Positions 4,642-24,025 of a stretch of DNA of 64,000 nucleotides are shown here, in pieces. Made by a program: the position numbers and the translations under genes. The stretch is from Sunxiuqinia elliptica. Its GTDB lineage: Bacteria; Bacteroidota; Bacteroidia; Bacteroidales; Prolixibacteraceae. The stretch's first letter is position 1, and each line of letters starts with the position of its first letter. A model generated the notes under the pieces. The model was not told the DNA's origin and searched no databases. It saw nothing but the letters and a program-made list of their open reading frames with translations. Location of the stretch: contig NZ_FONW01000001.1 of assembly GCF_900113005.1 (NCBI RefSeq), positions 1 through 64,000 on the forward strand. The letters are read 5' to 3'.

Positions 4642-4658
4642 ACGAAGCACGAACCACT

Positions 4659-4714
4659 AATTGAGTAGACGGCCGGTGAGCAAAAAAGCTCACTGGAGCG
4701 CCTCTCACACCGCC
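4659..4714 (-). ncRNA. Group II intron 3'-end fragment (domain VI-like), copy 1
   Basis: On the minus strand this reads gtgtgagaggcgctcc, a hairpin gtgagc/gctcac with a T-rich loop, then ccgtctactcaatt. It folds as a domain VI helix. GAG pairs with CUC across an unpaired A seven nucleotides from the 3' end, which is the branch-point geometry of group II introns. The preceding ggtgtgagagg resembles the end of domain V in Bacteroidota introns. The rest of the intron is missing and is replaced by ABC permease gene sequence. Identification is by structure and remembered consensus, not by a covariance model. Confidence 0.5.
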
Positions 4715-4717
4715 CTT

Positions 4718-4778
4718 TTAAATAAACTTCTCGCGTTTTTGCAGGTTAAACAGGCCATAGAGTAAAAAGACCACGGCA
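4718..4778 (-). pseudogene. ABC-2 permease 3'-end remnant
   Basis: The minus strand encodes FNLQKREKFI and stop, identical to the end of the intact permease at 5698-6414, plus a few upstream codons (VVFLLYGL). Beyond 4778 similarity fades, with possible gapped matches to about 4795. It is a duplicated gene tail, not a functional gene. Confidence 0.8.
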
Positions 4779-4876
4779 GCAAGAACGATTTTACTTACCA
4801 GAGGCTATCCAATTCTTTAGGAAAGCCTGCCAGCGATACTCTGCAACAACCTATTTGTAGCAAAACGATTCTTTTA

Positions 4877-5059: not shown

Positions 5060-5626
5060 ATGCAAATGGACAACTTTTTCTTCGACTACATATTTCCGGT
5101 TCTTCTAAGTATTGGGATGATTCTTTGGATTTATTGTATTTGGTTCTTAAATAAATACGACAAGAACACGAATAGACTTGTAATGCTGCTCCTTCTGAAT
5201 ATCTATTACGTTCCTTTTTATTTATTCAGGGTTCGGAGAATCAAAAAAGAAAATAGGATAAAAGCTTTAAGTGAAGAAATATATGATTCGGGTTTTATTG
5301 AAATGTCCCGTCATAGTATCATCGACACACTTGACTTGTGGGCTTCCGAAGAAAAACAACTTGAATATAAAAAGACTGAAAGTGAAGCGAACCTTACAGA
5401 TGAATTATTTCAACAATGGAAAACAGTTTACAGAATCGACAATAAAATTATTGGAGAAGCATTCAATAACTTAGAAACTGAATTACTCAAGACATTTGAC
5501 AAATCAATTGCGATTAGTGATGAAAAATTCAGAAATGATTTTCCTGATATAAATGAATTTCAGAACACAAATGACTGGAAAGTTTTGAATCAATTAGCGA
5601 AAGAGATAATAAAAGAAATAAAATAA
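5060..5626 (+). CDS. Membrane-anchored protein of unknown function
   Basis: This 188-aa protein has two hydrophobic segments near the N-terminus (about residues 8-30 and 40-56, the second with MLLLLNIYYVPFYLF). They are followed by a basic stretch RVRRIKKENR and a ~125-residue hydrophilic, helix-rich domain probably on the cytoplasmic side. I recognise no family. The gene is AT-rich and stands alone. It is bracketed by a perfect 9-bp inverted pair (5030-5038 and 5633-5641) and by direct repeats further out, which suggests it arrived as a unit. Start 5060 (MQMDN) could also be 5066. Confidence 0.6.
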   Translation: MQMDNFFFDYIFPVLLSIGMILWIYCIWFLNKYDKNTNRLVMLLLLNIYYVPFYLFRVRRIKKENRIKALSEEIYDSGFIEMSRHSIIDTLDLWASEEKQLEYKKTESEANLTDELFQQWKTVYRIDNKIIGEAFNNLETELLKTFDKSIAISDEKFRNDFPDINEFQNTNDWKVLNQLAKEIIKEIK

Positions 5627-5639
5627 AAATACGGTTGGT

Positions 5640-5694
5640 AATTGAGTAGACGGCCGGTGAGCAAAAAGCTCACTGGAGCGCCTCTCACACCACC
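5640..5694 (-). ncRNA. Group II intron 3'-end fragment (domain VI-like), copy 2
   Basis: This has the same fold and nearly the same sequence as the fragment at 4659-4714. On the minus strand it lies directly behind the stop codon of the small ABC-2 permease, so it would be transcribed as the 3' end of the efflux operon mRNA. Whether it acts as a transcript end structure is unknown; no T-tract follows. Confidence 0.5.
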
Positions 5695-5758
5695 CTTTTA
5701 AATAAACTTCTCGCGTTTTTGCAGGTTAAACAGGCCATAGAGTAAAAAGACCACAGCA
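5640..5758. repeat. Direct repeat, copy 2 (intron fragment plus permease 3' end)
   Basis: This is the partner of 4659-4778, about 97% identical. Here the permease sequence continues into the intact gene, so this is probably the parental copy, although copy 1 could derive from a close paralog. Confidence 0.85.
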
Positions 5759-6414
5759 CCAATCACCAAGAACAGGCGGTTTTTTAGGACAATTCCTTCC
5801 CACACCACTTCATTCATCCGCCCGGGAACATTAAAGGGGTTTAGGAACACGAACCACATCGTACGTTCCAATGCATCTGAAAGAATAAGCAGAATTATTC
5901 CCAGAATTACCATCACTACTGCTGTTCCATTGCCATTTTTGATGATGGTGGAAAACATAAAAGCCATGCTTCCGAGGAAGAAAACCGGAAACATCAGCTG
6001 GCCTGCCATTTCCAGCCAATTAACGGGAGCCAGAAAAATACTGCTGACACCTGCAAAACCAATGAGCAGCAGGAAGACCAACACAAAAATCAGCACCAAA
6101 CGCACCAGCCAGACTTTGTACCGATAATCCGGAATTCCGAATAAAATTTCGAGAATCCCTGCATCCTGATCGTTCTGAATACCAAAAGTCATGGGATAAA
6201 AAATAAGCAGCACTGCCGGAAAAAATAAAACTCCATAAACAAACTCCTCATCAGGCAGTTCGCCATCCAGCACTGCAACGATGGAGACAAAAGCATAAAA
6301 CGCAAATGCTGCCAACAAGAACCAAATAAACCGTCCTCCAAAGATGATCCGGAAATTATACTGAATCATTTTTCGAATCAGGTTCATCGTATTTTTTAGT
6401 TTGAGTGTATCCAT
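5698..6414 (-). CDS. ABC-2 type transporter permease
   Basis: This 238-aa protein has about six hydrophobic segments, including FIWFLLAAFAFYAFVSIVAV and VLFFPAVLLIFYPMTFGI, and the EILFGIPDYRYKVWLVRL loop typical of ABC-2 permeases that expose a cytoplasmic loop to the ATPase. It is the last gene of the seven-gene efflux locus, 197 bp after the RND-ABC fusion, whose ATPase domain is its natural partner (inference). Translation may start at 6414 or at the ATG two or three turns later (MNLIRKMI). Its 3' end is duplicated at 4718-4778. Confidence 0.8.
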   Translation of the reverse strand: MDTLKLKNTMNLIRKMIQYNFRIIFGGRFIWFLLAAFAFYAFVSIVAVLDGELPDEEFVYGVLFFPAVLLIFYPMTFGIQNDQDAGILEILFGIPDYRYKVWLVRLVLIFVLVFLLLIGFAGVSSIFLAPVNWLEMAGQLMFPVFFLGSMAFMFSTIIKNGNGTAVVMVILGIILLILSDALERTMWFVFLNPFNVPGRMNEVVWEGIVLKNRLFLVIGAVVFLLYGLFNLQKREKFI

Positions 6415-6611: not shown

Positions 6612-9600
6612 TTACTTCAAATCTTTAATCAAACATAGGTAAGCATCTTCCAGCAAAGGTTTCGCCTCAATCGCTTCTTCTGCCGGTTTTTCACGGCTCA
6701 GCATCCGCACCCGGATGTTATCGCCAACCCGCATGTGGTGCGTAACCAAATGCTTGTTGGGCAGATTCTCAAATGCCTCGGCTGGCACATCGTATTGCCA
6801 CACCAGTTGATCCGCCAAGCCCACCATATCCATCGGTGTTCCATGATATTTTACCTGTCCCCGGTTAATTACGGCCACCTGGTTACACGAACTTGAAATA
6901 TCTTCAATAATATGGGTAGAAAAAATGACGATACGCTCGCGACTCAGCTCCACCAGCAAGTTTCGGAACCGAATCCGCTCGCGCGGGTCAAGCCCGGCCG
7001 TAGGTTCATCCACCACCAAAATCTTGGGTAAATGCAGTAAAATCTGAGCAATCCCAATCCGCTGTTTCATCCCACCAGAAAAAGAACCAATCTTGTCCCG
7101 CCGTTTCTCCCACATGTGTACCGCTTTCAAAACATACTCCACCCGTTCTTCACGCTCCTTCACATCGACCAAGCCTTTCAACAAGGCCTGATAATCCAGA
7201 AAATCCTGAGAGGGCATGTCCTCGTAAGTGCCAAATTCCTGTGGCAAATAGCCAATCAGGCCCTGCAGTTCTTCGCGCTTTTCCTGCGTGTCAATGCCAT
7301 TGATCCACACCTTACCGTAGCTCTGCTCAAAGATTCCGCAGATAATCCGCATCATGGTTGATTTTCCAGCACCATTTGGCCCCAGCAAACCAAACATTCC
7401 CGTACCAATTTCAAGCGACACCCCATTGAGCGCTTTAAAGGGCACCCGGCGTTTCCCAATCACCGGAATTTGTTTTACCAAACGGTAAATGGTTCGTCGC
7501 AATCGGCTAAAGCGTCCGGTTATCCGGTCGATATTAACCTTTTCTTCGTACAGGCGGCGAGCTGTTACCGACACCATTAAAGCCAAGTACCAAAGGGCTC
7601 CGAAAGCTCCAGCCAAACCCGTATACTTGGTCTTTTGCCATAAGATGCCAACTGCCACCAAAGGAAAAAACCAAAACAAAAACCGTTTGACTACTCCGTT
7701 GAGCCTGCGATAACGCTTCCGCTGGGTCTCCGCATAACGATGTTCCAAATAAATGGCTACCGGCTTCCAAATCTGGTTCAGGTAGAGATAAACCATCACC
7801 ATCATAAAACAAATCCAGAAAGTCGCATTTAAAAAGAAGAAGGTAAAATAGATGAGGAAAGCCAGCAGCGGTAACTGCCAAATCAACTGATCAAACTCTC
7901 GCAGGGAACGGTATTCCTTTTCCAGCCCGGCACGACGCCTGATATTCAGCCCTCCTCTCCACTCGCGGGCAAAGCGACTTGGTCGGTCGTATATTTTAAC
8001 CAGGTTTTGAATGACGATATGCACCTTCTCATCCGGCGCAATCAAGCGGCTATTGGCCTTTTTCAAGCTGTTGAGCACAAACCAGGTGATTCCCGGAATA
8101 AGCACAACGGCCAGCACGGTATCCAACATTTTCCAAGTCAGAGCATCCACTTCAAAATAGATCAAGACCAAGGTGCCTGCCATCGCCACCAATTGAAATA
8201 CTTTTAGCTTCCAATCCAATCCGTAAAACCAGTCCAAGGCATTTTCCAATCCCGAATAAAAGGTCGGGATAAAGATCAACGTCAACGCAGTACTCAAAGC
8301 CAAGCCACCAATTACGATGATTGCAAAAGGTGCTCCAATCACGCTGACATATTCTGCTTGTCCCATGGCCAGTGGCACCATCGCAACAATCGTGGTTATG
8401 GCGGTTATCAAAATTGGTCGCACCCGCGATAAGCCGGCTGTCATCAGGGCCCGAGGCCGACGATAACCCCGTTTTCGGAGAATGTTACTATAATCAATCA
8501 GAATGATTCCGTTGTTGACCACCACCCCAAGCAGAATGAGGAAACCGATCATCGTGTTGGTATTGTACAAACTGTTTCCAGTTATAATTAAGGCCAACAG
8601 CGAACCGATGGCTGCCAAGGGGATGGAAAAGAGTAAGACAAACGGCGTAGCAAACGATTCGAACACCGAAGCCAGAATCATAAAAATCAGAATGATGGCT
8701 GCCAGAATAAGAAACTTGAATTCACTTAAATCATCTTCTTCGTGAATCACTTCAGCTGCAACACCCGATGGAAAATTGTATCCGGCAATCAACGCATCAA
8801 TATCATAGCGATACGACTCCAGCAAGTCTTTCGATTGCTGCGCCTCCGAAATCAGGCTGTAAGTTATTTCAATCTGCTTTTCCTGGTTCACCCGCTGAAT
8901 GCTTGCCGGTCCACGAGCGTACACCATCTGCGTAAAATCCTGCATATCGTGCAAACCTCCGGAGGCATCACTAACCGGCAATCGCTTCAGGTCATCCATC
9001 GAGCGAGGCTTTTCCTCTTCCTCGTTCTCCTCACCTTGTTTGATGATAATTTCATACTCTTCCACGCCCTGATTAAACTGCACTCCCGTTGCTATTTCAC
9101 CTGAAAAAGAGTTCAGTTCGCTGGCGACCTGCCCCATATTAATGTTATAAGTAGTCATCAAAAGCGGATCAAATAGCAAGTGAACTTCCGGGCGATTGTC
9201 CTGCACGTTGACTCGGGCACTGTTAATAAAATCCTGCTCTTCGAGGAAATACTCCAGGTCTTCCGCCACGGTCTGCATCATTTCAAAATCCTGTCCTTTA
9301 ATGACCACCTTCTCCTGATCGGTACCAATTCCCATCATGCGCTGAAAGTCACCCATCATATTTCGGGCCCGGCCTCCAAAGCCACCGCCACCGCCGCCAG
9401 ATTGACTTTCTTCAAAGGAAATTTCGGCCGATCCAATCTTTTTGGTGAGCTCATTAACATCGGCTTTTATGGTCGCAAAATCCCTTCCTCCAATTTTTTC
9501 ATAGTCTTCAGCCAAAGTAATGGCCACCACCGCTTCTTCTTCCTGAATGGTGCTTACCACATCCTGCTTTTCTGCCAGCTCGCCCAACTTCTCTTCAATC

Positions 9601-11327
9601 TTAGCCACTGTTTCGTCGGTAGTTTCCAGACTTGAACCCGACGGCATGGTCACAAACAATTGGATCTGGTCATTTTCCACTTCCTGCAGCGAGCTGACAC
9701 TTAACATCAAACTCACAAATATCGTGATAAAGAAAACGGCAACAGCTCCTAACACAGTGGCTGCCGGATACCGCATGCACGATTTCAGCAGCAACAAATA
9801 CACTTGCACCATCCGGTTGTTGGTGGTCACCTTCTCAAACGAAACCGATTTTCCGCCTTTTCTTTTCAGGATGTAGTGAATCGCCATTGGAACGAAAAGC
9901 AGAGCAACCACCAGCGACACCAACAAGGTTGAGATAATGGAAATCCCAACATTCTTGCCAAGCAATTCAATCATGAAATTACTGGAGAACACAAATGGCA
10001 GGAATACCGTGATGGTAGTCAGCGTAGCCGCCAGAATGGATCGCCACACTTCGGATGTTCCCTGAGTCACGGCCGTATCGGGATCAGCGCCTTTCCCCGC
10101 CAGCCGGTAAATATTTTCGAGCACCACCACACTGTTGTCGAGCAGCATCCCAATGGCCAAAGCCATGCCCACTAGCGTGAGGCTGTTTAGAGTAATATCG
10201 TAGGCATAAAATAAGTTGAAGGCTGTAAAAATGGACACCGGGATCGCCAAGGCAATGAAGGCCACAATCCGAACATTTTTCAGAAACATCCAAAGCACAA
10301 ATACGGCCATCAGCCCGCCAATCAGTGCCAGATTGATGATCTGATCAATATTCTCCTCCATGGTTTCAGCAGCATTATTCTGCACCACCAATTCCACCTC
10401 TTTACGAGCCAGCTCCGCATTCAATTTCTCAATCAACTCCAACACTTTATGCGACAGTTCAATCTGATTGGCCTGCGAGTCATTAATCAGCTGAATTGAA
10501 ACTGCATCTTTACCATTCACGCGGCTGTAGGTTGTTTCCTCCTTCACCCCAAAACGCACCTCGGCAATATCTTTTAGCAGAATGGGGCCATCAGCCACCA
10601 CCAGGTTTTCGATATCACTCACCTGGTCATACTCTGCCGTTACATGCACAAAGTAGAGTTTCTCGCTTTCATTCAGGTTACCAACATAAGTCCGCGAACG
10701 TGCATTGGATGACAAAGCTGTTCGCACAGCAGCAGGTGTAATACCATAAGCTTCACAGGCTTCCATATTCAGAATAACCTCAATGGATCGTTCGCGTCCG
10801 CCAAACACATTGACCCCGGCAATACCATCGACATTCTCCAACTCAGGCGCTATTTCCTGATCCACCACATTCCGCACCCGGTCAACTCCGCCACTTCCCC
10901 GAACCTGCAGATCCATAAACTGGGAATTGATTTGCGAGAGGTCCATCCGGTTGACATTCACCATCACCCCTTCCGGCAGCTGGCTTTTTATTTCGTTGAT
11001 CTTCTCCTGAAGTTTCAGATAAGCAAAACTGAAATCGACATCCTTTTGGTAGTAAACAATGACGGTTCCCATTCGGGAAGTTATATTCGACTCAATCGAT
11101 TCAATTCCTTCAAGTGTGCCAACAGCTCCCTCAATTGGAATGACAACTTCGTTTTCAAGATACTCCGGATCAGCTATTTGAGGAGTCGTTGCCTGCACAA
11201 ACAAAAAAGGCAAATCGGCATTGGGCAACAGCTCAACCCCCAATTGTTTATAAGACACGTAACCCAACAGGGTCAGTCCGATAAACAACATACTGATCAA
11301 GGTTTTTCTATCAACTATAAATTTCAT
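6612..11327 (-). CDS. RND efflux pump fused to an ABC ATPase
   Basis: This is a 1571-aa chimera. Residues 1 to ~1045 form a full RND permease: first membrane helix at ~10-30, helix cluster with GMLLDNSVVVLENI near residue 400, a Gly-rich periplasmic loop (~640-650), and a second cluster with GVVVNNGIILIDY. A ~250-residue bridge with about six further hydrophobic segments follows, then an ABC ATPase domain with GPNGAGKST (~1316), Q-loop YLPQEF, signature FSGGM (~1415), Walker B ILVVDEPTAGLDP (~1426) and H-loop STHI. All ATPase motifs are intact. An ABC-type first strand, HIVIQNLVKIYD (~1103-1114), lies about 180 residues before the rest of the domain, so the domain appears split by membrane helices. 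Ordinary RND pumps are ~1030 aa and driven by proton flow. The frame is unbroken, so the fusion is not a simple frameshift artefact. Its closest ATPase relative here is the product of 20830-21723. Confidence 0.9.
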   Translation of the reverse strand: MKFIVDRKTLISMLFIGLTLLGYVSYKQLGVELLPNADLPFLFVQATTPQIADPEYLENEVVIPIEGAVGTLEGIESIESNITSRMGTVIVYYQKDVDFSFAYLKLQEKINEIKSQLPEGVMVNVNRMDLSQINSQFMDLQVRGSGGVDRVRNVVDQEIAPELENVDGIAGVNVFGGRERSIEVILNMEACEAYGITPAAVRTALSSNARSRTYVGNLNESEKLYFVHVTAEYDQVSDIENLVVADGPILLKDIAEVRFGVKEETTYSRVNGKDAVSIQLINDSQANQIELSHKVLELIEKLNAELARKEVELVVQNNAAETMEENIDQIINLALIGGLMAVFVLWMFLKNVRIVAFIALAIPVSIFTAFNLFYAYDITLNSLTLVGMALAIGMLLDNSVVVLENIYRLAGKGADPDTAVTQGTSEVWRSILAATLTTITVFLPFVFSSNFMIELLGKNVGISIISTLLVSLVVALLFVPMAIHYILKRKGGKSVSFEKVTTNNRMVQVYLLLLKSCMRYPAATVLGAVAVFFITIFVSLMLSVSSLQEVENDQIQLFVTMPSGSSLETTDETVAKIEEKLGELAEKQDVVSTIQEEEAVVAITLAEDYEKIGGRDFATIKADVNELTKKIGSAEISFEESQSGGGGGGFGGRARNMMGDFQRMMGIGTDQEKVVIKGQDFEMMQTVAEDLEYFLEEQDFINSARVNVQDNRPEVHLLFDPLLMTTYNINMGQVASELNSFSGEIATGVQFNQGVEEYEIIIKQGEENEEEEKPRSMDDLKRLPVSDASGGLHDMQDFTQMVYARGPASIQRVNQEKQIEITYSLISEAQQSKDLLESYRYDIDALIAGYNFPSGVAAEVIHEEDDLSEFKFLILAAIILIFMILASVFESFATPFVLLFSIPLAAIGSLLALIITGNSLYNTNTMIGFLILLGVVVNNGIILIDYSNILRKRGYRRPRALMTAGLSRVRPILITAITTIVAMVPLAMGQAEYVSVIGAPFAIIVIGGLALSTALTLIFIPTFYSGLENALDWFYGLDWKLKVFQLVAMAGTLVLIYFEVDALTWKMLDTVLAVVLIPGITWFVLNSLKKANSRLIAPDEKVHIVIQNLVKIYDRPSRFAREWRGGLNIRRRAGLEKEYRSLREFDQLIWQLPLLAFLIYFTFFFLNATFWICFMMVMVYLYLNQIWKPVAIYLEHRYAETQRKRYRRLNGVVKRFLFWFFPLVAVGILWQKTKYTGLAGAFGALWYLALMVSVTARRLYEEKVNIDRITGRFSRLRRTIYRLVKQIPVIGKRRVPFKALNGVSLEIGTGMFGLLGPNGAGKSTMMRIICGIFEQSYGKVWINGIDTQEKREELQGLIGYLPQEFGTYEDMPSQDFLDYQALLKGLVDVKEREERVEYVLKAVHMWEKRRDKIGSFSGGMKQRIGIAQILLHLPKILVVDEPTAGLDPRERIRFRNLLVELSRERIVIFSTHIIEDISSSCNQVAVINRGQVKYHGTPMDMVGLADQLVWQYDVPAEAFENLPNKHLVTHHMRVGDNIRVRMLSREKPAEEAIEAKPLLEDAYLCLIKDLK

Positions 11328-11483: not shown

Positions 11484-14400
11484 TTAGCTCGTCCGCTTCT
11501 GCAAACGGTCTTTCACTCCTTCAATCGCCTCGTACATGCACGGCAGCACAACCAGAGTCAACAAAGTTGAAGTGACCAATCCCCCAATCACAGCCAATGC
11601 CATGGGCGAGCGCAACGAAGCACTTTCGCCAATTCCCAGGGTTAGTGGGAACAAGGCCAGAATGGTGGTCAAACTAGTCATGATAATTGGGCGAATACGT
11701 TGCTGCCCGGCCAATAAAATGGCATCCAAACGAGCCATTCCATCTGCCCGAAGCTGCAAAATCCGATCGATAAAAATGATGGAATCATTCACCGCAATCC
11801 CTACCAACATGATAATCCCGATGTAGGCCATAATATTCAATGTTTTACCCAAAAGGAAAAACACCAAAATGGAACCTACCACTGCAAGTGGAATCGTCAA
11901 CAAAATGGTGAACGGATGCAAAAGTGACTCAAACTGAGAGGCCAAAACCATGTACACCAGCACAATGGACAAGATTAAGGCAAAGCTTAAGCTCGCCATG
12001 GATTCTTGCCGCTTAGCTTCTTCCCCACTGATTTTCACCTGATAATCGGGAGGAATATTCATGGGTTGAATCGCTGTTCGTATTTCACGGGCAGCTTGAT
12101 CCAATGGAACATCTTTTTCCAATTGAGCTGTAATTTTTCCAATCCGGTTCTGATTTCGACGATACACTTCTTTGGGCGATTGACCAATGCGAATATCGGC
12201 CAGTTCACTCACCAAAAACTCTTGATTATTACTCGAAATACGTAACTCATCCACCTGCTTCAATCCTTTTTCTGGCAGCTTGATGGTTATGTCCTGCATC
12301 TCCCCTTGTCGCTCCACCTGGCCAGCGACTTTTCCTTCCAGCTGATCTTGAATCTGGCTCACCATGTTGGTGACACTCAGGTTATACATGCCCGCTCTCA
12401 AGCGATCCACCACAATTTCAACCTCGGGCGAGCCTTCTTCCATGGAAGACTCGAAGTTGTACATTCCCGGAAGGCTCTCCACCCGGCTCATCACCTCAGC
12501 GGTTAAGGATTCAATCACCTCCAGATCTTCTCCCTGAACCTCGATCACCAAAGGAGCCTCATCGGTTCCCATGATGCTTTTCAAGGCTGTTTCGTCCTGC
12601 TGGTAGTTGATTTCCATGCTTGGAATTTCACCCACGGCCCGACTGATTTTTCGAATTGCTGCCGTTGAAGCCAAGTTCGTTTCCGGCTTCAATATAATTT
12701 TGATGGTTGCCGTATTTTCACCTTCAAAAATCTGGTTGGCCGAACCACTAACCCCTCCCGAAGGACCAACATGGCTGTACAAGGTCTCCAAGTCTTCAGC
12801 AAGCAATTCTGAGATCAGGGTTTCGAGGTTTTCCACTGCAGCTGAAGTCCGCTCCAGCCGGGTTCCTTCCTGCATGCGAACTTCAAGGCTAAATTCCCGG
12901 GTTTCGGTTTTCGGCATAAACTCTGTACCAATAAAAGGAAGCAACAAAGCCGAGCCACCCACCAAAATCAAAGCCAATAAAATCACCAGCCACTTCATTC
13001 GAAGCACACGCCCCAGAAAACGGCCATATCCCTTAACCTGAACCGATTGCTTTTGCGTTTTGCGCGGTTTCTTTTTATACAGTAAATTAAAGAGCATCGG
13101 GATAACCAGAATGGCTACTGCCAGGGAAGAGACCAGCGAAAAGGCCACTGTCCACGCCTGATCTTTAAACAATTCGCCCGATGCACCGTGCAAATAGACG
13201 ATGGGCAAAAACACGATGATGGTTGTAATGGTAGAAGCCGTAATTGCCCCGCTCACCTGCGAAGTTCCCTCAATGGCCGCTTCCCGGACCGACATGCCCG
13301 ATTCATGGTTTCGAAAGATATTCTCCATCACCACGATGGCATTATCCACCAGCATTCCCGCACCAAGAGCCAAACCTCCCAAGGTCATGATATTCAGGCT
13401 CAAGCCATTAAAGTACATCAAATTGAAGGTGGCAATGATCGATATCGGGATGGCAATGCTGATAATCAGGGTCGTTCCAAAACGCCTCAGAAAAAGGAAC
13501 AGGACAAAAACTGCCAGGACAATCCCCAGCAAAGCCGACTCTTCCACTTCATTGATCGCATCGCTGATGAAGCTTCCCTGGTTAGTCACCATTTGTAGCT
13601 GATAGCCCGGCAACGCCTTTTCGATATCACCAATGGCCTTGTTAACCTCCTCAACCGCTTTGACCGTGTTAAACTTGGTTTCTTTATAAATAGACAAGCC
13701 CAGGCAGCGCTTGCCATTGAGCCGAACAATGTTTTCCGGATCTTTATTCTGAAAGCTCACGTTAGCCACTTCGCGTAAATAAATGGGGGCTGAAGCAACT
13801 TTTTCCTGCTCGGCAACCACCGGTTTGTAGCCGACAATAATGTTCTCAAAGTCCTCCCTATCGGTGAGTAAACTCACACCTTTAACCACATAGCGCAAGC
13901 CCATCTCCTCAATGCTTCCGCCCGAAATATTTTGGTTGAAACTGTTGATCCTTGTGCTAATCTCATCCAGGCTTAAGCCAAAAGCATCCAGCAGGTAATC
14001 GTTGGTTTCGATTAACACCTGCACATCTTCTTCGCCTGCAACATCCACTTCTGCCACCCCCTCCAAACGAATCAACTCATTTCGGATGTAATTGTCAGCC
14101 ACCTTACGCAAGTCGTTCATGTCGTTGTTCGTCGGATGACTCAATCCCAGCAACATCACCGGCGATGTATTGGGATCGTGCTGCGTAATGTTGATTTCGT
14201 CAATATCTTTATTCTGAGCAAATGAACTCACCGCTTTCTGGAGGTCCAGAAAAGCATCGTCCATATCTTTATTCCAGGCATATTCCACCGTAATTTGCGC
14301 ACTCCCCACTTTTGAGATGGACGAAACCTGAACGACATCCGACTGTCTGATCGCCAGCGCCTCGAGGTTCTCAACAAATTGCTTTTCCATCTCTTCCGGA

Positions 14401-14567
14401 GGACGTTCGCCCGACTCCATCTCAATAAACAGGCGTGGGTTGTTCAAATCCGGGAACAGGTCAACGCCCAGCTTATCATACGAGATGTAGCCCAACAGCA
14501 CGATGCCAAGCACCAACATCCAAATGGTAACCGGATAGTTGACCGAAAATTCGCTTAACTTCTTCAC
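11484..14567 (-). CDS. RND efflux permease
   Basis: This is a 1027-aa inner-membrane RND transporter of normal length. It shows the N-terminal helix (VTIWMLVLGIVLLGYISY), the periplasmic domain start with DLFPDLNNP, the mid-membrane motif GMLVDNAIVVMENIF (TM4 Asp), and the C-terminal cluster with LASQFESLLHPFTILLTIPLAVVG and GIAVNDSIIFID. It should export substrates through the adaptor and outer-membrane channel encoded just upstream. The adaptor gene ends 12 bp before it, so they are co-transcribed. The RND-ABC fusion follows after 156 bp. The substrate cannot be read from sequence. Confidence 0.92.
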   Translation of the reverse strand: MKKLSEFSVNYPVTIWMLVLGIVLLGYISYDKLGVDLFPDLNNPRLFIEMESGERPPEEMEKQFVENLEALAIRQSDVVQVSSISKVGSAQITVEYAWNKDMDDAFLDLQKAVSSFAQNKDIDEINITQHDPNTSPVMLLGLSHPTNNDMNDLRKVADNYIRNELIRLEGVAEVDVAGEEDVQVLIETNDYLLDAFGLSLDEISTRINSFNQNISGGSIEEMGLRYVVKGVSLLTDREDFENIIVGYKPVVAEQEKVASAPIYLREVANVSFQNKDPENIVRLNGKRCLGLSIYKETKFNTVKAVEEVNKAIGDIEKALPGYQLQMVTNQGSFISDAINEVEESALLGIVLAVFVLFLFLRRFGTTLIISIAIPISIIATFNLMYFNGLSLNIMTLGGLALGAGMLVDNAIVVMENIFRNHESGMSVREAAIEGTSQVSGAITASTITTIIVFLPIVYLHGASGELFKDQAWTVAFSLVSSLAVAILVIPMLFNLLYKKKPRKTQKQSVQVKGYGRFLGRVLRMKWLVILLALILVGGSALLLPFIGTEFMPKTETREFSLEVRMQEGTRLERTSAAVENLETLISELLAEDLETLYSHVGPSGGVSGSANQIFEGENTATIKIILKPETNLASTAAIRKISRAVGEIPSMEINYQQDETALKSIMGTDEAPLVIEVQGEDLEVIESLTAEVMSRVESLPGMYNFESSMEEGSPEVEIVVDRLRAGMYNLSVTNMVSQIQDQLEGKVAGQVERQGEMQDITIKLPEKGLKQVDELRISSNNQEFLVSELADIRIGQSPKEVYRRNQNRIGKITAQLEKDVPLDQAAREIRTAIQPMNIPPDYQVKISGEEAKRQESMASLSFALILSIVLVYMVLASQFESLLHPFTILLTIPLAVVGSILVFFLLGKTLNIMAYIGIIMLVGIAVNDSIIFIDRILQLRADGMARLDAILLAGQQRIRPIIMTSLTTILALFPLTLGIGESASLRSPMALAVIGGLVTSTLLTLVVLPCMYEAIEGVKDRLQKRTS

Positions 14568-14579
14568 GGCTAATCCTTT

Positions 14580-15638
14580 CTATTTGATGATTTTTACTTT
14601 GGAACGATCGCGCAGGGTCTCAAACCCTTTGACCACCAAGCGGTCATTGGCTTTCAAGCCCGAGGTAATTTCAACCCGGTCCTGATTTTCGTAGCCAAGC
14701 GTTACTTGTTTTTGTTCTGCCGTTCCCTTAACCACGATGAATACGGATTTGCCCCGTTGGTTCGACAAAATCACATCTTTAGGAATGACAATGACGCTAT
14801 CTTTTCGATCCAGAATAATTTCGGCCTGAACAAACATCCCGGGGCGTAATTTCAACGCTTCATTCTGAACTTCCAGGTTGCCTTTAAAAGTCCGTGTTTC
14901 AGTACTGATAGCCGGCGATAGTGCTCCAACTTTTCCCTGCAAAGTATCTTCAGGAAGCGTGTAATTCATCACCCGAATCACTTGATTCTTATCGACCTCA
15001 TTGATGTATTTCTCCGGAAGATTAACCTCCAGGTTCAAGGTTTCATAGCTCATCAAAGTGGCCACTTCTGCATTGCTGGCTACTTTTGTTCCCTCAGTAA
15101 AGTAGGGTAACTCGGTAATTACCCCGGTAAATGGAGCACGTACCTTCATCTTCTCCAACTGAATCTGAGCCAGCTTATAGCTATCGCGTGCGTTTACCGC
15201 CGACACTTCTGCATTACTCAGTTCACTTTGAGTCACTCCCCCCTTGTCAAACAACGATTTTTGCTTGGTGTACTGTTGCTCCGAAATATCCAGATTCAGC
15301 TTTTTGGCTTCCAAACCGATATTATTTACATACTCTTCATCCTCCAACTGCACAATTACTTGTCCTTGTTTTACCTTATCGCCAAGCATAAACGGCTTCC
15401 CAGTCGCCGGATTCACTTCCAGTGCATACCTGCCACTCATTTCAGTCAATAGGCTGGCTTCTTTTATTGCGGTTACTGTTCCGGTCGTATTGATGGTTTG
15501 TTCAATGAAACCAGGCTTAAGGTCTTCCACAGAAACCGGAATGGCAACTTCTGTTTCTGAATCGGCATTTTGATTGTTACAAGCTCCTAAGCCCAACAAG
15601 GCAAGGATCGTAATCAAGTGGTAAATTTTGATCTTCAT
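14580..15638 (-). CDS. RND efflux membrane-fusion (periplasmic adaptor) lipoprotein
   Basis: This 352-aa protein has a lipoprotein signal (ILALLGLGAC, Cys at residue 20). Family-typical parts follow in order: barrel-sandwich half-motif GTVTAIKEASLLTEMSGR, GDKVKQGQVIVQLED, a short helical hairpin (~95-150), MKVRAPFTGVITE, and beta-barrel and membrane-proximal domains ending in GLKANDRLVVKGFETL. It links inner-membrane RND pumps to the TolC-type channel. It is the only adaptor in a locus with two RND proteins, so both pumps may use it (inference). Confidence 0.92.
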   Translation of the reverse strand: MKIKIYHLITILALLGLGACNNQNADSETEVAIPVSVEDLKPGFIEQTINTTGTVTAIKEASLLTEMSGRYALEVNPATGKPFMLGDKVKQGQVIVQLEDEEYVNNIGLEAKKLNLDISEQQYTKQKSLFDKGGVTQSELSNAEVSAVNARDSYKLAQIQLEKMKVRAPFTGVITELPYFTEGTKVASNAEVATLMSYETLNLEVNLPEKYINEVDKNQVIRVMNYTLPEDTLQGKVGALSPAISTETRTFKGNLEVQNEALKLRPGMFVQAEIILDRKDSVIVIPKDVILSNQRGKSVFIVVKGTAEQKQVTLGYENQDRVEITSGLKANDRLVVKGFETLRDRSKVKIIK

Positions 15639-15665: not shown

Positions 15666-17150
15666 CTAGTTTTTTCTTTTTTGAATAATTTCTTCAGGCA
15701 CAATTCCCTGTTTGGATTCAAAATCGTACAAGGTTTGAATCTTCAGGTTAAGCAGTTCGATCTTATAATTGATCAACGACTCGGCATAGGCCATTTTCTT
15801 TTCAGAGAGCTGATTCTGATACAGGTTCAGATCCATACTGGTTAAATCGCCATTGGCGTATCGCTCCAGGTTGATTTCATAGGTTAACTGTGCATTTTTC
15901 TCGTTCTGACGCGCAATGTCGATTTGATTTTCGAGGTTGAGCAATGACCGGTATACTTTCCGGATGTCCAGCACAATTTGAATTTCCTGTTGCTCGGCGT
16001 TTAACTCCTGTGTTTTTATAACGGCTTCCTGTGCCTTAATCCGGGACTTTTTCTCACCCCAATCAAAAAGTGGCACATTGAACGAAACTGATACTTTGGG
16101 ATTATTCGTAGGACTGTCGTAAATATCGCCCAGCTTACGGTCATCCCCAATGATCCCAATCGACAAGTCCATCTCACCCCGAAATTCATTCGAAGCTTTG
16201 GTCCGAATCAACCCAAATTGCGATGTTTCAATATCAATCTCACGTTGACGAATCTCCATACGCGAACCCAAGCCATAGTCAATGGCTTTTTGCAGGTCAA
16301 CCTCCACAGGATTAGCCTCTACATTCGACATGACAGCAAAATCCTCGAAGATGTCCATCCCGATGTATTGCTTGAATTGATCCTTGTAGTTTTCGAGTAA
16401 CACCCTTTGGTTTTGAACGTTCGACTTAGCCGTGGCATAGTTGAGCTCGGCTTGGTACAGCTCTTCCCGGGCTGCCAGTCCCGCCTCCACTTTGTTCTTG
16501 GTTATATCAAAACTCTTCTCGGTATTGGCTAACTCATCCTCGGTAATGCTCAAACTCATTTGTGCCAGGTAAACATCGTAAAAATACTGGGTTACCAGTT
16601 TCTCCAGATTGAGTTTCTGCATCGCATAACTCAGGTTTGAGTTTTCAAGATCCAGCTCTAACTCTTTCAGCTCCAAACGCAACTTATTATAGGTAAACAA
16701 CGGCTGGTTCAAACTCAAATACAGGTTGTTTGAAAATGAACGGTCCTCAATATTGTTGGTGCTACTGGTACTTTTTTGCCATCCAAAACGATTCACCAAC
16801 TGCACTGTTCCATCGGTTATCAAAATGGGCTGAGAAACCGTGAAAGTTCCCGAAGCTCCAAGCGACTCATTGGTGTACCAATTGGAATAATAATCGTCAA
16901 ATGCACGTGTACGGCTGTAATCAATCGGATTAAGGCTCAAGGCAAACTGAGACTTCAAACTCGCCCGTTTAGCATTCAACGACTCTTGCGAGCGTTCTAA
17001 TCCCAACAGCGAGGTTCGAATATCAGGGCTGTTTTGAGATGCTATTTCCAATGCTCTATCCAGGTTTAGCAACTGTTGTCCGAAAGCAAATCCGGCTGGC
17101 ATGAAAGCAAGCAAGAACAGCAGTTTGATTGTTTTAAATCGTGTCTTCAT
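15666..17150 (-). CDS. TolC-family outer-membrane efflux channel
   Basis: This 494-aa protein has a signal peptide (FLLAFMPAGFAFG) and the two repeated coiled-coil/beta halves of outer-membrane efflux proteins, for example NLDRALEIASQNSPDIRTS at the N-terminus and NLEKLVTQYFYDVYLAQM. A second half follows with VSVSFNVPLFDWGEKKSRIKA and ENQIDIARQNEKNAQL. It would form the exit duct for the RND pumps. The adaptor gene starts 27 bp downstream. A 276-bp spacer separates it from the preceding permease gene. Confidence 0.9.
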   Translation of the reverse strand: MKTRFKTIKLLFLLAFMPAGFAFGQQLLNLDRALEIASQNSPDIRTSLLGLERSQESLNAKRASLKSQFALSLNPIDYSRTRAFDDYYSNWYTNESLGASGTFTVSQPILITDGTVQLVNRFGWQKSTSSTNNIEDRSFSNNLYLSLNQPLFTYNKLRLELKELELDLENSNLSYAMQKLNLEKLVTQYFYDVYLAQMSLSITEDELANTEKSFDITKNKVEAGLAAREELYQAELNYATAKSNVQNQRVLLENYKDQFKQYIGMDIFEDFAVMSNVEANPVEVDLQKAIDYGLGSRMEIRQREIDIETSQFGLIRTKASNEFRGEMDLSIGIIGDDRKLGDIYDSPTNNPKVSVSFNVPLFDWGEKKSRIKAQEAVIKTQELNAEQQEIQIVLDIRKVYRSLLNLENQIDIARQNEKNAQLTYEINLERYANGDLTSMDLNLYQNQLSEKKMAYAESLINYKIELLNLKIQTLYDFESKQGIVPEEIIQKRKN

Positions 17151-17426: not shown

Positions 17427-20400
17427 CTACTGCTTCACCAATTTCACAGCATCGGCAACCACCAAGCGCGCTTCCGACTCATTCGTTAGTTCAATACGAG
17501 CGGTATCTGAAGAAAAATAATAAGCTCCCAAATGGTTCCAGCCATCTTCAGCCGACTTCAAATCAACCAAAGCGTCTTCTTCTCCATCATCATGATGCAC
17601 GATGAAATGGTATTCACCGTTCTTATTTCCGCCCCAACGCCCCCGGCGATCTTCTTTGTAGACGTAAGCGTACACATCATAAAAACCGGCCTCAGAAACG
17701 GGAACGTTCCAGGTAGCCACTTTATCTCCTACGCCGGATCGCAAGTAATAGGCCGACCGGATGTAGGCGCCATAAAATTCAGAATTCGTTGTCAAAGTCC
17801 AGGTACGGGGAGCTCGCCAAGAAGTGAATCCAGCATACTTTTCAGGATTCTGATTCTCCTTAATCAGTAATTCGCGAAGCAAGCTTGTTTCAGCCTCTCC
17901 ACGGACTTCAAAGCCCGGATCTTCGTTATCCAGAATTAGCTCATTGTCTTCCGCAATCCGAACAGGTATATCCACCACTTGCTCTCCTTCGTACGGAACA
18001 GCTTTCTTATCTTCTTCAATGTTTTCCAACGGCATTCTAATTTCCGAAGGAATATTTTTAGAGGCTAGTGTATTGATCGAAAATCCACGAGGACTTTCAT
18101 TCAACAAGAAGCTCACTTCCTTGCTTTGCTTTCCTTCTAAATGAATCAGTTTAGTAATTGTTTCCGGGGCTCCACCACCTCCAAAACGTCTTCCACCACC
18201 TCCCAAGCGAAAGTCAACGGTCAGGATGCCTTCTGTCTCTTCGGTATTACTCACCTTAAACTTCACCATCGTTTTCAACTGGTCGCCATCCAACACATTG
18301 ACTGCATCGACCGATCCAATTAAAAACGCAGGCAGTTCTTTACTACTAAACCAGCCTTCCATGTACGGAATCAGGTCGATTCCAAATTCTTGTTGAAGGG
18401 CGGTATTGAAATCATCAATCGTTGATGCTGAAAACTTGGCATCATTCAGGTAGGCATATAAAAAGTCTTCAAAAGCATCCCCTTCCACTTTTGTTTTAAT
18501 AATTGAAAACAAGGTCTTTCCTTTCAGTTGAATGACATTGTCAATAATCTGCTTTTGCTCCGGATCTTCCAGTATTTCCTCGAAACTATGCGATAACAAG
18601 GCCAAGTTTCCTTTTTCATCTTCGGACATCCCTTGTAAGTTACGCACCCAGCCCATTTGCTGCCCATCGGTTTTCAGTTTTTTGTAAGCTTCAAAAACAC
18701 GATCGGTAACCGGCCAGCGCTCCGAACGAATGTAGTAGGCATAGTTGTAGAACAATGGAAAGACATAGAACGGGTTCTTCTTTTCCTCAACTTCCACTTC
18801 GCCACGCGAACGGTTCACATCGGGGCGCCCTTGCTCCCGAGTAAATGTGGACAGAAAATTCTGAAGGATCCTGATCTTCCGCTCTTCTGGTGTCAGGTTC
18901 TGCTCATCTCTGCCTCCCCATCGCCGACGTCGTTCCATTTGACCGTAAAAGTCAGCATCACGCTCCAACAAACCTTTTTCCGGATAAAGAATCATCCCGG
19001 GTTGAATTTGCTCACGCGCCCCAGTCAAAATCCGATCATAAGCAGTAAACTGAATCGGCACCTCAACCAGAGAAAGCTGCTCAAAGGGATAATATAAATC
19101 AACATTTCGCTCAAAATCCTGCAAGGCCTCAGTGATAATTGATGGAATGGTATCCTGAACATCTTCAAAAAAGGCTGAAAAATAATCGTGTCCTTTTCGG
19201 TAATAAATGTTGAAATCCAAGCCATCAATCTCCCGGCTCATCTGCTCATACTCACCAATGGCTAAAGCAATTTGCGATTGCGCATGAGAATTGGTAAAAA
19301 CAAACCGATTATCCTGCTCTTCCAGCTCTCCTTGCGAAACGGCCCTTAGTCCTTTTGCAGTAATCACTTCCAACCGGTAATCACTAAACTGGCGGGCAGC
19401 CCATTGTTTGTTTTTTAATCCAAAGCCAACTCCCGGAATCGGATACCAATTTGCTTCGCGTGTAAGCAATACGTATGAAGGAGTGACAAACGCATAACGC
19501 TTATCAATTTGGTAAAGAAAGTTATGATAGGGTTCTGCCAAGGTCTCATCGTCCACATCCAAAAAACAAGCAGCCTCGTTAATTTTGCCTTGGTATTGAA
19601 AAGTCAACTGCAATTCACCGCCTGCAGGAACCCTTAAGTTGGTTAGCTTGACTAAGCCCAACTCTCGCTTATAGGTTTGACTCTGCCCGTTAACCAGCAC
19701 TTGGCTCACCTGCAAGCCCGGATTCAGGCTAAAGATAACTTCATCAATAGCTTCATCGGAATTATTCCAAGCTTCAAGCGTCGTTTTACAAGCGATTGTC
19801 TCTCCCAGATGTTCCAACTGAATGTCGTAAGCTGACACCTCCAACTGTTGTGCTTCCAGATAGCGATCATTCAAGCTGATCATCTCTTCCCGCAGCTTCT
19901 GATCATCTAAAAAAGAATGAACATGTAAATAACCCAGGTAAAGTCCACCCGTCAAAGCAATGACGCCAACGATCAAAGACCAAAGACGCATTTTGTCGGA
20001 ATGCGGAAGTCGACGCAACAACAAGATTGTGAAGCAAATGAAGGCTATGCCAAGCAGAAGATACATCCCACGGTGAATCAGGATGGTTTCCTGATTGCCA
20101 AAGCCAACAAAGTCAGACATGGTCAGCGGAATGTTATAGGCCATATAATCAAACAGGTAGTAAAACTTGTTTCGCAGGTAAAACAACGAAATGGCAACAT
20201 AACCCAACAGTACCACAAAGGTAACTGCCTGATTTCGGAGCAATGACATCACTAAAAACGACAGCCCCATGATGAATATCAACGTTGGCACACTGATCAC
20301 CAGAAAGTAACTGAGGTAAGCCATGGCATTGACACCCGTATTCTTTGTAATGAGGTTAAACAGCAAGGCAATAGCCAATATAATCAGGTTCAACACGATA

Positions 20401-20759
20401 AAGACCACGAAATTTCCTAAAGTCTTTCCTAAAACATACTCTCCGTTAGTCATCGGACGCATGTAAATGACCTCAGTTGTATCCAGTTTTTTATCTCGTT
20501 TCAGGAAATCGGATGCCAGAAAAATGGCAATCACCGCCTGCACCACATTCAAAAACAACAAATTGACATAAGGAATGATGGATGGAAGTCCTTTAATGGA
20601 CCATTCGCCTGCCCCTCCACTGGATTCAATTAAAACTCCAAAATTGAAAAACGATAGAAACACAATGGCCAGTATGGCAAAAATCCGGAAGAACCAGCTT
20701 CTCAATAAAGTTTTGGTTTCGTAGCGGGCAATCGATCGTATGTTATGAATCGAGATCAT
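17427..20759 (-). CDS. ABC-2 permease fused to degenerate M1 peptidase-like and golvesin-like domains
   Basis: This is a 1110-aa membrane protein. The first ~270 residues hold about six helices and the XRPMTNGEYVLGKTLGNF-type loop of ABC-2 permeases. Residues ~300-810 resemble the N-terminal beta and catalytic-like regions of M1 aminopeptidases found in ABC permease/M1 fusions (QLSLVEVPIQFTAYDR, GMILYPEKG). I find no HExxH zinc motif where catalysis would need it, so it is probably inactive. The last ~125 residues match the golvesin/xanthan-lyase-type C-terminal domain (WNVPVSEAGFYDVYAYV, then RIELTNES and ADAVKLV). It pairs with the ATPase 70 bp upstream. Topology puts the large domain outside the cytoplasm. 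Confidence 0.8.
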   Translation of the reverse strand: MISIHNIRSIARYETKTLLRSWFFRIFAILAIVFLSFFNFGVLIESSGGAGEWSIKGLPSIIPYVNLLFLNVVQAVIAIFLASDFLKRDKKLDTTEVIYMRPMTNGEYVLGKTLGNFVVFIVLNLIILAIALLFNLITKNTGVNAMAYLSYFLVISVPTLIFIMGLSFLVMSLLRNQAVTFVVLLGYVAISLFYLRNKFYYLFDYMAYNIPLTMSDFVGFGNQETILIHRGMYLLLGIAFICFTILLLRRLPHSDKMRLWSLIVGVIALTGGLYLGYLHVHSFLDDQKLREEMISLNDRYLEAQQLEVSAYDIQLEHLGETIACKTTLEAWNNSDEAIDEVIFSLNPGLQVSQVLVNGQSQTYKRELGLVKLTNLRVPAGGELQLTFQYQGKINEAACFLDVDDETLAEPYHNFLYQIDKRYAFVTPSYVLLTREANWYPIPGVGFGLKNKQWAARQFSDYRLEVITAKGLRAVSQGELEEQDNRFVFTNSHAQSQIALAIGEYEQMSREIDGLDFNIYYRKGHDYFSAFFEDVQDTIPSIITEALQDFERNVDLYYPFEQLSLVEVPIQFTAYDRILTGAREQIQPGMILYPEKGLLERDADFYGQMERRRRWGGRDEQNLTPEERKIRILQNFLSTFTREQGRPDVNRSRGEVEVEEKKNPFYVFPLFYNYAYYIRSERWPVTDRVFEAYKKLKTDGQQMGWVRNLQGMSEDEKGNLALLSHSFEEILEDPEQKQIIDNVIQLKGKTLFSIIKTKVEGDAFEDFLYAYLNDAKFSASTIDDFNTALQQEFGIDLIPYMEGWFSSKELPAFLIGSVDAVNVLDGDQLKTMVKFKVSNTEETEGILTVDFRLGGGGRRFGGGGAPETITKLIHLEGKQSKEVSFLLNESPRGFSINTLASKNIPSEIRMPLENIEEDKKAVPYEGEQVVDIPVRIAEDNELILDNEDPGFEVRGEAETSLLRELLIKENQNPEKYAGFTSWRAPRTWTLTTNSEFYGAYIRSAYYLRSGVGDKVATWNVPVSEAGFYDVYAYVYKEDRRGRWGGNKNGEYHFIVHHDDGEEDALVDLKSAEDGWNHLGAYYFSSDTARIELTNESEARLVVADAVKLVKQ

Positions 20760-20829: not shown

Positions 20830-21723
20830 TCACCCTGCTGTCCATTGATTCAGACGGCTTTCCATAAAATAGACATAGGCGTGCTCTAGGTTTGGATCAA
20901 TCGCATGCCCATTGTATCCATTGATCTCGTCAGCCACAAGCTGAATCTCCCAGCCTTCACTGGTTGGCACATTCGAAATTACTGGATATTTTTCATTGAT
21001 TTCCTGATATTCTCGCTCGCTGGCATTGATCAGCCATACTTTTCCAACCGCTTGTTCAACCAAATCGTCCGGCGAACCACTGTAAGCCAGTTCTCCCTGG
21101 TTAAGCAAAGCCATGCTCTTACATGTGCTTGAAATATCCCCCACGATATGCGTAGACAGAATAATTATCACATCCTTCGTAGAAATAGTGGACAGCAGAT
21201 TTCGAAACCGAATTCGTTCCTCCGGATCCAAGCCGGTTGTTGGCTCATCCACAATAATAATCTTCGGCTCATTAATCAAGGCTTGAGCAATTCCCAATCG
21301 TCGTTTCATCCCACCCGACAAGCGATTTGCCTGCCGATCGCGGGCTTCAAACAAGCCCACCTCTTCCAGCATCCGATCAACTGCATCTGCACGCCTCTTG
21401 CCCGACTTTATCCCAGCCAAACGTGCAGCGTAATCCAAAAATTCGTAGGTTTTTAGCTTCGAGAAAAAACGAAAGTCCTGAGGCAGGTAACCCAACATTT
21501 TGCGAATCTCTTTCCGATCTTTCTCCAAGTCAAGTCCATTCATCGTTACCTTACCATGACTTGGTTTCATCAAAGTGACCAGGATACGCATCAAGCTTGA
21601 TTTACCGGCTCCATTGGGACCTAACAAACCAAACATGCCATTTTCGATTTCCAGATGCACGTCATGCAATGCCCGGTTCCCGTTGGGATAAATTTTGCTT
21701 AGTTGGTCAATCGTTATTTTCAT
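20830..21723 (-). CDS. ABC transporter ATP-binding protein
   Basis: This 297-aa ATPase shows every key motif: GPNGAGKSS (Walker A, ~35), GYLPQDF (Q-loop), RLSGGMKRR (signature), IIIVDEPTTGLDPEE (Walker B) and STHIVGD (H-loop). It is the first gene of the efflux locus and should energise the permease fusion downstream. Its EERIRFRNLL stretch and C-terminal layout are shared with the ATPase domain of the 1571-aa fusion, suggesting duplication within the locus. I see no exact TAnnTTTG box in the 296 bp upstream (21724-22019), which otherwise hold nothing recognisable. Confidence 0.93.
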   Translation of the reverse strand: MKITIDQLSKIYPNGNRALHDVHLEIENGMFGLLGPNGAGKSSLMRILVTLMKPSHGKVTMNGLDLEKDRKEIRKMLGYLPQDFRFFSKLKTYEFLDYAARLAGIKSGKRRADAVDRMLEEVGLFEARDRQANRLSGGMKRRLGIAQALINEPKIIIVDEPTTGLDPEERIRFRNLLSTISTKDVIIILSTHIVGDISSTCKSMALLNQGELAYSGSPDDLVEQAVGKVWLINASEREYQEINEKYPVISNVPTSEGWEIQLVADEINGYNGHAIDPNLEHAYVYFMESRLNQWTAG

Positions 21724-22019: not shown

Positions 22020-22712
22020 CTATTGGTTCCACATCCGATAGTGACTTCTTTCGTCTACACTCAGACTTATCTTTCTTATCGGCGAATAACCATCTAAGTG
22101 AGCCCCATTCGTAAGTGTCCCTTCTAACTCCCCAATTTCAGTCTCAAATATTCGGATTTCAGTCTGATTCAAATCAAAGTTTAGTCGATCAATTTTCTGA
22201 TTGTTAAACTGAATGTGGCTGTTTGAACTTCCTAAAATAGCTAAGTGCCCCAATTTTGGAGTCGTATACTCCGATCGCATATAAAGCCAACTATCGGTTA
22301 AGCTGACTACCACAGAATCGGATTCAAAATCAATTAAACTCACCTCACTATTCTGATTTACTCTCAGGTTCTGAATATCGTTCACAACAAGCTCCAAAGG
22401 CATCCCCCTTACCTCTCTTTCAGGTTGAGCTAAAAACAGCGTATCATTCTTCACATTCCAAGTCGGCATCACCAAACCACTATCCAGCGAACTATAATTA
22501 ACTGTCAACTGATTTGAAGCTCCATTTCTGATTTGAAGCTTGACATACTTTTCTGCCACAACCGTTGAAAACTCGCCCAAAGCCTCGTTCTTAGAATGAT
22601 ATTCTTCGGGAGCTATTTCCCACAAGTGCACTTTTCCGGACCAGAAAAGCAAAACGGTACTTCCTACAAGAAACACCACAAAAGACAGGATGATATAATT
22701 ACTCGTTTTCAT
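22020..22712 (-). CDS. Exported beta-rich protein (DUF2807/GIN-like), unknown role
   Basis: This 230-aa protein has one N-terminal hydrophobic segment (IILSFVVFLVGSTVLLFW), a signal or anchor, followed by a repetitive beta-strand pattern (LVVNDIQNLRVNQNSEVSL, LAILGSSNSHIQF, then LNFDLNQTEIRIF). That is similar in style to the DUF2807 putative auto-transporter adhesin-head fold of Bacteroidota. It overlaps the GntR gene by 14 bp and ends the GntR/ABC operon, so it is probably co-regulated. Related ABC/GntR operons often carry such a gene last; its function is unknown. Confidence 0.6.
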   Translation of the reverse strand: MKTSNYIILSFVVFLVGSTVLLFWSGKVHLWEIAPEEYHSKNEALGEFSTVVAEKYVKLQIRNGASNQLTVNYSSLDSGLVMPTWNVKNDTLFLAQPEREVRGMPLELVVNDIQNLRVNQNSEVSLIDFESDSVVVSLTDSWLYMRSEYTTPKLGHLAILGSSNSHIQFNNQKIDRLNFDLNQTEIRIFETEIGELEGTLTNGAHLDGYSPIRKISLSVDERSHYRMWNQ

Positions 22713-23079: not shown

Positions 23080-23080
23080 T

Positions 23081-23878: not shown

Positions 23879-23969
23879 CTGTATAAATTTTAATTTCCTG
23901 ATCATTTAAAAATTCAAATTTGACAGACAGAACCGCTCCATCCGTCGCTCTCACATAAAATTTGTTCAT
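23856..23969 (-). CDS. Possible 37-aa small protein between ABC subunits
   Basis: This is an ATG-initiated frame of 37 codons (begins MNKFYVRATD, ends EIEPFF) in the 120-bp gap between the ATPase and permease genes. It overlaps the permease start in another frame, an arrangement compatible with translational coupling. No homolog is recognised and there is no independent evidence of expression. Confidence 0.25.
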   Translation of the reverse strand: MNKFYVRATDGAVLSVKFEFLNDQEIKIYTDEIEPFF

Positions 23970-24025
23970 TCTTGTTTTTGTAATTTTTGAATGAAAAATT
24001 TCATGTTCGTTTCATAACTCCAGTT

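Follow-up and report, generated by a model that had tools for sequence, protein, structure and literature searches.

The gene at positions 6612..11327 on the minus strand of a 64,000-nucleotide stretch of the Sunxiuqinia elliptica genome (contig NZ_FONW01000001.1, positions 1 to 64,000, hereafter the window) encodes a genuine single-chain RND-ABC fusion, in which an RND permease is joined through about six extra membrane helices to an ABC ATPase. By the usual teaching, RND pumps and ABC exporters belong to different classes, each with its own energy source, and a conserved covalent hybrid of the two would represent natural primary and secondary transport in one chain, making the handover of substrate from the inner to the outer membrane directly testable. 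The parts of the fusion are members of known families, but no description of their single-chain union or of the split ATPase domain reported below was found in the literature searched, which comprised open-access papers and left subscription papers outside its scope. This agrees with a first-pass annotation of the window, made from the sequence alone, which had held that the fusion is not a standard transporter class.

The reading frame starts with ATG and runs for 1571 amino acids without an internal stop. Pfam assigned ACR_tran to residues 2-1025 (8253..11324, minus strand; 551.9 bits against a cut-off of 28, covering profile positions 3-1018 of 1021) and ABC_tran to residues 1300-1444 (96.6 bits, cut-off 25). 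These two domains in one intact frame, together with 61 full-length homologues, bear out the continuous RND and ABC ATPase frame that the first-pass annotation had proposed. The fusion was found at 70 loci (69 if L031 and L131, seemingly one record, are merged), and at 61 of these it occupies a single frame of at least 1400 amino acids. Eight of the 70 loci end with the stored stretch (L031, L034, L035, L131 and L135-L138), and at L038 (coverage 4.48) the fusion is split into frames of 331 and 1231 amino acids inside the RND part. The break at L038, and that at L021, one of the 61, where the first ~55 residues lie in another frame, are what a sequencing or assembly artefact might leave behind, but the 61 full-length frames come from independent records and are 44% (L133) to 84% identical to the window protein in the best segment. 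Because of these homologues, we reject an artefactual origin of the fusion, which has practically no probability left.

The fusion was found within the Bacteroidota. Scanning the species collection for a pattern that picks up close relatives only gave 30 loci, all from this phylum, with carriers including Sunxiuqinia, Gaoshiqia, Mangrovibacterium, Plebeiobacterium, Labilibacter, Tannerella and Prolixibacteraceae bins. Sunxiuqinia dokdonensis, Mangrovibacterium marinum and Labilibacter sediminis, which are cultured environmental species, are among these carriers. Even sampling showed the fusion in 6/395 phylum genomes and 40/295 order genomes; the second figure counts matches extending past the ATPase into the bridge (residues 1039-1296), eight of them in frames that fall short of full length. 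None of the 59 matching plasmid records covered 80% of the bridge and ATPase part, and the RND part matched 24 plasmid records, all at less than 60% identity.

The ATPase part retains every catalytic motif. The Walker A (G..GAGK), Q-loop Q, SGGMKQR signature, Walker B DE and H-loop H, previously noted as intact in the window protein, carry identical letters in 62/62 aligned rows (the 61 homologues and the window). By sequence, the closest solved relatives of the C-terminal part of the fusion are ABCA-type ATPase domains and bacterial ABC ATPases, and a Foldseek search with a model of the fused ATPase placed the Thermotoga ATPase 4yer_A at the top (E 1.2e-17). The annotation had located the ATPase at residues 1294-1571, and the core of the domain does lie there (residues 1297-1571, 6615..7439); its first strand, however, appears already at residues 1103-1113, so that the domain is discontinuous, with its first strand ~180 residues upstream and several membrane helices inserted within it.

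The discontinuity is supported by both a profile search and a structural model. A 12-column profile taken from the N terminus of the free ATPase encoded in the same cassette (consensus KISIKNLNKIYP) was moved stepwise over every fusion protein. For the window protein, residue 1103 (HIVIQNLVKIYD) is the best position and scored 24.6 bits with the next best at 2.1, while the maximum over 300 shuffles of the whole protein averaged 2.9 bits and reached 16.6 once. The best place falls at the same aligned position in 61/61 homologues, with scores from 9.9 to 26.8, some of them within the shuffle range. Residues I1104, V1110, K1111 and Y1113 are invariant in 62/62 rows, and the position of Y1113 is one that we take to be the A-loop aromatic residue site of ABC proteins. 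The AlphaFold model of the junction, built for residues 865-1571 from 58 sequences, is of moderate quality (pLDDT 79.4, pTM 0.62) and contains a strand at 1104-1113, all its other strands lying at 1297 or later within the ATPase. Since a strand assignment needs a partner and the remaining strands all belong to the ATPase, the strand at 1104-1113 would have to pair with the ATPase core, as judged from the strand assignments of the model rather than from its coordinates.

On this architecture, the RND part is followed by a first added helix pair (residues 1039-1091, 8055..8213), modelled by AlphaFold as helices 1039-1059 and 1063-1091 and coinciding with hydropathy peaks at 1046-1064 and 1062-1088, and then by the first ATPase strand with Y1113 (residues 1103-1114, 7986..8021). 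The membrane insert that splits the ATPase domain (residues 1115-1296, 7440..7985) comprises four modelled helices of membrane-spanning length, 1151-1165, 1169-1201, 1204-1233 and 1236-1261, located between strands 1104-1113 and 1297-1307, and a hydropathy scan made three of these four visible. With two helices before the strand and four after it, the model upholds the even number of added helices that had been counted earlier. We know of no described ABC ATPase with membrane helices inserted just after the A-loop strand, and the fusion would be evidence that such a domain can accommodate them at this place.

The insert is a conserved feature of the fusion. The stretch corresponding to residues 1030-1298 measures 251-269 residues in 57/61 homologues, 197 in L133 and L134, and 296 and 313 in L073 and L132. 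In a search with the bridge alone, 3 of 295 class genomes gave a match, and all three matches lie within fused frames. A profile of the insert bore no relation to the permease profiles tested (hhalign probabilities 0.7 or less), and a role of the insert as a third permease was ruled out on these values. At L133:11349-15947 and L134:11053-15582 the insert is ~70 amino acids shorter and holds, by eye, two hydrophobic segments, resembling a natural reduced version.

The nearest solved relative of the RND part (RND2) by sequence is MdtB (9lyq_B, E 3.8e-72), and other RND proteins in the phylum sample reach ~27-32% identity to the window protein at best. The TM4 aspartate D397 is invariant in 62/62 rows, the second TM4 position of the AcrB proton relay is N in 56/62, and N938, at the position of AcrB K940 in TM10, is invariant. 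RND2 is preceded by a second RND permease (RND1, 1027 amino acids, 11484..14567, minus strand; Pfam ACR_tran, 726 bits), and in both proteins the first TM4 aspartate is retained, the second position is mostly N and the AcrB K940 position is N. This DN/NN pattern is common to 8 of 15 ordinary Bacteroidota RNDs, a sample made up of the best matches of RND2 from which 17 of 32 loci were dropped as having no long plus-strand frame. Given that the relay pattern is shared with ordinary RNDs, it is from family membership that we infer the RND part to be proton-driven.

The fusion occupies the sixth place in a cassette of seven genes whose order is fixed. On the minus strand of the window, the order is a free ABC ATPase (297 amino acids, 20830..21723; Pfam ABC_tran, 112 bits), an ABC-2 permease with an M1-like domain lacking HEXXH and a golvesin C-terminal domain (1110 amino acids, 17427..20759), a TolC-type outer membrane channel (494 amino acids, 15666..17150; Pfam OEP, 155 bits), a periplasmic adaptor (MFP, 352 amino acids, 14580..15638; HlyD_D23, and RND_mfp TIGR01730 with 198.2 bits against a cut-off of 94.9), RND1, the RND2-ATPase fusion, and a 238-amino-acid permease (PERM238, 5698..6414). 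The adaptor and outer-membrane channel partners of HAE-1 RND pumps are thus present in the cassette. Counting matches of more than 26% identity on the same strand as the fusion, all seven genes stand in cassette order at 27/70 fused loci, and at one of these a further match similar to the 1110-amino-acid permease stands in front; the last six stand in order at 29/70, the pattern-scan stretches ending inside the 1110-amino-acid gene, and shorter sub-strings of the order occur at 14/70. No other order was seen at the 70 fused loci, most of the incomplete ones ending inside the cassette. A gene for an ABC-type permease lies directly behind the fusion at 65/70 loci, and the remaining five end at or near the fusion. 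Neighbouring cassette frames overlap by a few bases in some homologues (for example L071), and gaps of 70-276 bp separate some of the cassette genes in the window, which makes a single transcript for the cassette less certain.

The motif letters of the free ATPase are kept in 32/32 sequences. In the 1110-amino-acid protein, Pfam placed ABC2_membrane_2 and Golvesin_C over their cut-offs and Peptidase_M1 below its cut-off; HEXXH is absent from this protein and from 34/35 relatives, suggesting that its M1-like domain is apparently a dead peptidase turned into a periplasmic domain of an ABC permease. A separate ABC set lies on the same strand at window positions 22020-24835, with an ATPase at 24026-24835, a membrane protein at 23081-23905 and a small protein at 22699-23079 that, as read from its translation, resembles a GntR-type regulator and whose relatives adjoin the cassettes at L111, L116 and L117.

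The best match of the fused ATPase domain in the genome is the free ATPase of the cassette (43% identical, 236 bits versus 154.5 for the next). A tree built from 122 ATPases groups the 62/62 fused domains in one clade (support 100/99) whose sister is a group of 14 ATPases from outside the cassette (98/91), the free ATPases of the cassette branching elsewhere, and a second tree, for which a third of the fused rows and different outgroups were used, recovered the sister relation at 93/77. Both trees were flagged for long branches, and support for the sister relation is modest. Because the trees place the 14 non-cassette ATPases closer to the fused clade, a recent copying of the free ATPase was rejected as the source of the fused one, and we do not claim a local duplication.

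Thirteen of the 14 sister ATPases directly adjoin an ABC-2/M1 permease of 1191-1249 amino acids that contains HEXXH, and the contig ends in the fourteenth. A rough scan counts 11-17 hydrophobic segments in these permeases, and Peptidase_M1 is over the Pfam cut-off in the two that were scanned. Such two-gene peptidase-ABC systems are widespread in the same order (L139, L142-L144, L146-L148, L150 and L152-L156). A protein of this kind, Q1D520 of Myxococcus xanthus, is described as having 1200 amino acids, 13 TMS, an ABC-2 domain and an M1 peptidase and is listed under TC 3.A.1.145 (PMC3924187); the 1191-1249-amino-acid permeases are assigned to this family by architecture and size, not by comparison with Q1D520 itself.

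To relate the permeases to one another, profiles of 11 of the 13 peptidase-ABC permeases were compared by hhalign with those of 19 cassette permeases. The 1110-amino-acid protein matched residues 313-1179 of the peptidase-ABC permease, that is, the second membrane half and the M1 part, with a probability of 99.7 (E 2.9e-26), although its membrane part alone matched both halves (94.4 for the first, 96.4 for the second). PERM238 matched residues 9-268, the first membrane half, with a probability of 34 (E 4e-4), against control values of 0.2 for the second half, 0.1 for the M1 part, 0.2 and 0.1 for reversed profiles and 0.3 for RND helices. PERM238 itself showed no match to the 1110-amino-acid permease (probabilities 0.4 and 1.5). 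The matches to opposite halves suggest that the two cassette permeases are two halves of one permease, one beside each ATPase, although the assignment of PERM238 as the first half of a peptidase-ABC-like permease, while supported, is the weaker of the two.

The ABC-2 type of PERM238 is suggested by its predicted fold. No ABC-2 Pfam model matched the protein, and an identity as an acyltransferase was rejected, the Pfam Acyl_transf_3 score of 19 bits lying below the cut-off of 31. Its AlphaFold model (pLDDT 87.6, pTM 0.84) retrieved ABC transporter chains at the first 27 Foldseek ranks, including PmtCD, ABCG2, NosDFY, ABCG25 and ABCA4, with TM-scores of ~0.4-0.57 and a best E of 0.056; none of the 143 Foldseek matches had an E of 0.001 or better, nor did any match in a viral fold library. 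Of 119 order genomes, 14 contain PERM238, and each of these is also one of the 40 carriers of the fusion. The annotation had suggested that the ABC-2 permease gene next to the fusion could complete an ABC half-transporter, and a gene for a probable ABC-2-type permease is indeed directly downstream, but the 238-amino-acid protein alone does not complete an ABC transporter, because a further, free ATPase and a further permease are encoded in every cassette long enough to show them.

Taking these observations together, we lean, with some reserve, towards a reading in which the cassette encodes a type V ABC exporter of two ATPases and two permeases that is anchored covalently, via RND2, to a tripartite pump with two RND proteins, and which would couple export across the inner and outer membranes. 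The two ATPases and two permease genes of the cassette supply the set of a type V exporter. The type V (ABC-2) part would consist of the 1110- and 238-amino-acid permeases with the free 297-amino-acid and RND2-fused ATPases, the tripartite part of two different RND subunits, the adaptor and the TolC channel, and the RND2-ATPase fusion would link the two. Using ATP, the ABC part would move the substrate across the inner membrane or extract it from there, the pseudo-M1/golvesin domain outside may take it over, and the RND part would then pump it out via the TolC channel. The pairing of the two ATPases, the assembly of the complex and the handover between the ABC and RND parts are presumed in this model. 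In the simplest trimer, one RND2 would combine with two RND1, and one RND2 per trimer would mean one ABC unit per pump. The proposal of a composite exporter is weakened by the symmetries of its parts, two-fold for ABC and three-fold for RND, which do not match by themselves, and likewise by the weak homology of PERM238, by the modest support and long branches behind the sister relation of the fused and peptidase-ABC ATPases, and by the moderate quality of the junction model.

A closer form of coupling is conceivable, in which ATP binding at the split ATPase is mechanically coupled to the RND part and ATP hydrolysis and the proton gradient together drive one transport event across both membranes in a seven-protein complex; we regard this as a tentative reading of the sequence. 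That the fused ATPase instead mainly pushes the membrane helices of its own RND chain via the inserted helices, with ATP replacing or boosting the proton gradient, much as ATPases of the MacB type power movements in the periplasm, seems unlikely. This mechanism is attractive since the split domain places membrane helices beside the nucleotide site, immediately behind the A-loop strand, an arrangement that would link nucleotide binding directly to the membrane part, and the insert, for which no relative was detected, was seen in fused frames only; the usual TM4 aspartate is nevertheless kept throughout the alignment, and the permease gene that follows the fusion at 65/70 loci, in a cassette that brings a complete partner set, argues against it.

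The fused ATPase could also be a switch or an assembly clamp, ATP binding regulating or assembling the pump without powering transport, in the way that FtsE acts with FtsX in cell division. A tether would be well served by a fusion within a conserved operon, and a regulatory role is conceivable for two ATPases that are both catalytically competent and accompany a complete RND pump, but the invariance of the full hydrolysis motif set in 62/62 rows and the ABC permease pair within the same cassette make this explanation quite improbable. We give still less weight to two independent transporters that share an operon, the fusion only setting how strongly they are expressed or how they are targeted to the membrane. 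Genes for ABC and RND exporters often lie side by side and peptidase-ABC systems stand alone elsewhere (14 loci), yet the junction has a conserved strand and insert of its own, and no un-fused cassette exists among the 70 fused loci; four partial cassettes (L140, L145, L149 and L151) stop before the fusion and cannot decide the matter.

The composite exporter, as proposed, shares features with several known systems. Like MdtABC-TolC (HAE-1, MdtB2C), the cassette combines an adaptor and a TolC-type channel with two RND genes in a row, and RND2 aligns to MdtB over both of its halves; it differs in that RND2 bears an ABC ATPase and has N, not K, at the AcrB K940 position, and in that ABC genes belong to the cassette. 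MdtB and MdtC are reported to form a B2C trimer whose chains have different roles (PMC4338810), and the adjacency of the RND1 and RND2 genes makes a single MdtBC-like trimer of the two a candidate arrangement. MacB fuses an ATPase and a permease in one protein (PMC8277102). As in MacAB-TolC, an ATP-driven inner-membrane part is accompanied by an adaptor and a TolC channel, but the permease of MacB is not an RND protein, and Pfam reported no MacB/FtsX domain in the cassette proteins scanned. ArsAB and KdpFABC combine an ATPase with a carrier- or channel-type membrane protein, but these belong to other families and consist of separate chains. With the TC 3.A.1.145 systems, the cassette shares a 1110-amino-acid permease that corresponds to the second permease half plus M1, a PERM238 that weakly corresponds to the first half, and free and fused ATPases related to those found beside such permeases; in contrast to them, the permease is split into two genes, the M1 site is lost in 34/35 proteins, a golvesin domain is added and one ATPase is fused to an RND permease.

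The window also contains a direct repeat of ~125 bp at positions 4658-4782 and 5639-5762 (100 nt at 97% and 29 nt at 100% identity, spacing 980-981) that covers the 3′ end of the PERM238 gene. A 28-amino-acid remnant of the PERM238 C terminus (88% identical) lies at 4721-4792 on the minus strand and a small ORF at 5060-5626 on the plus strand between the repeat copies, an arrangement that looks like a duplication or insertion event.
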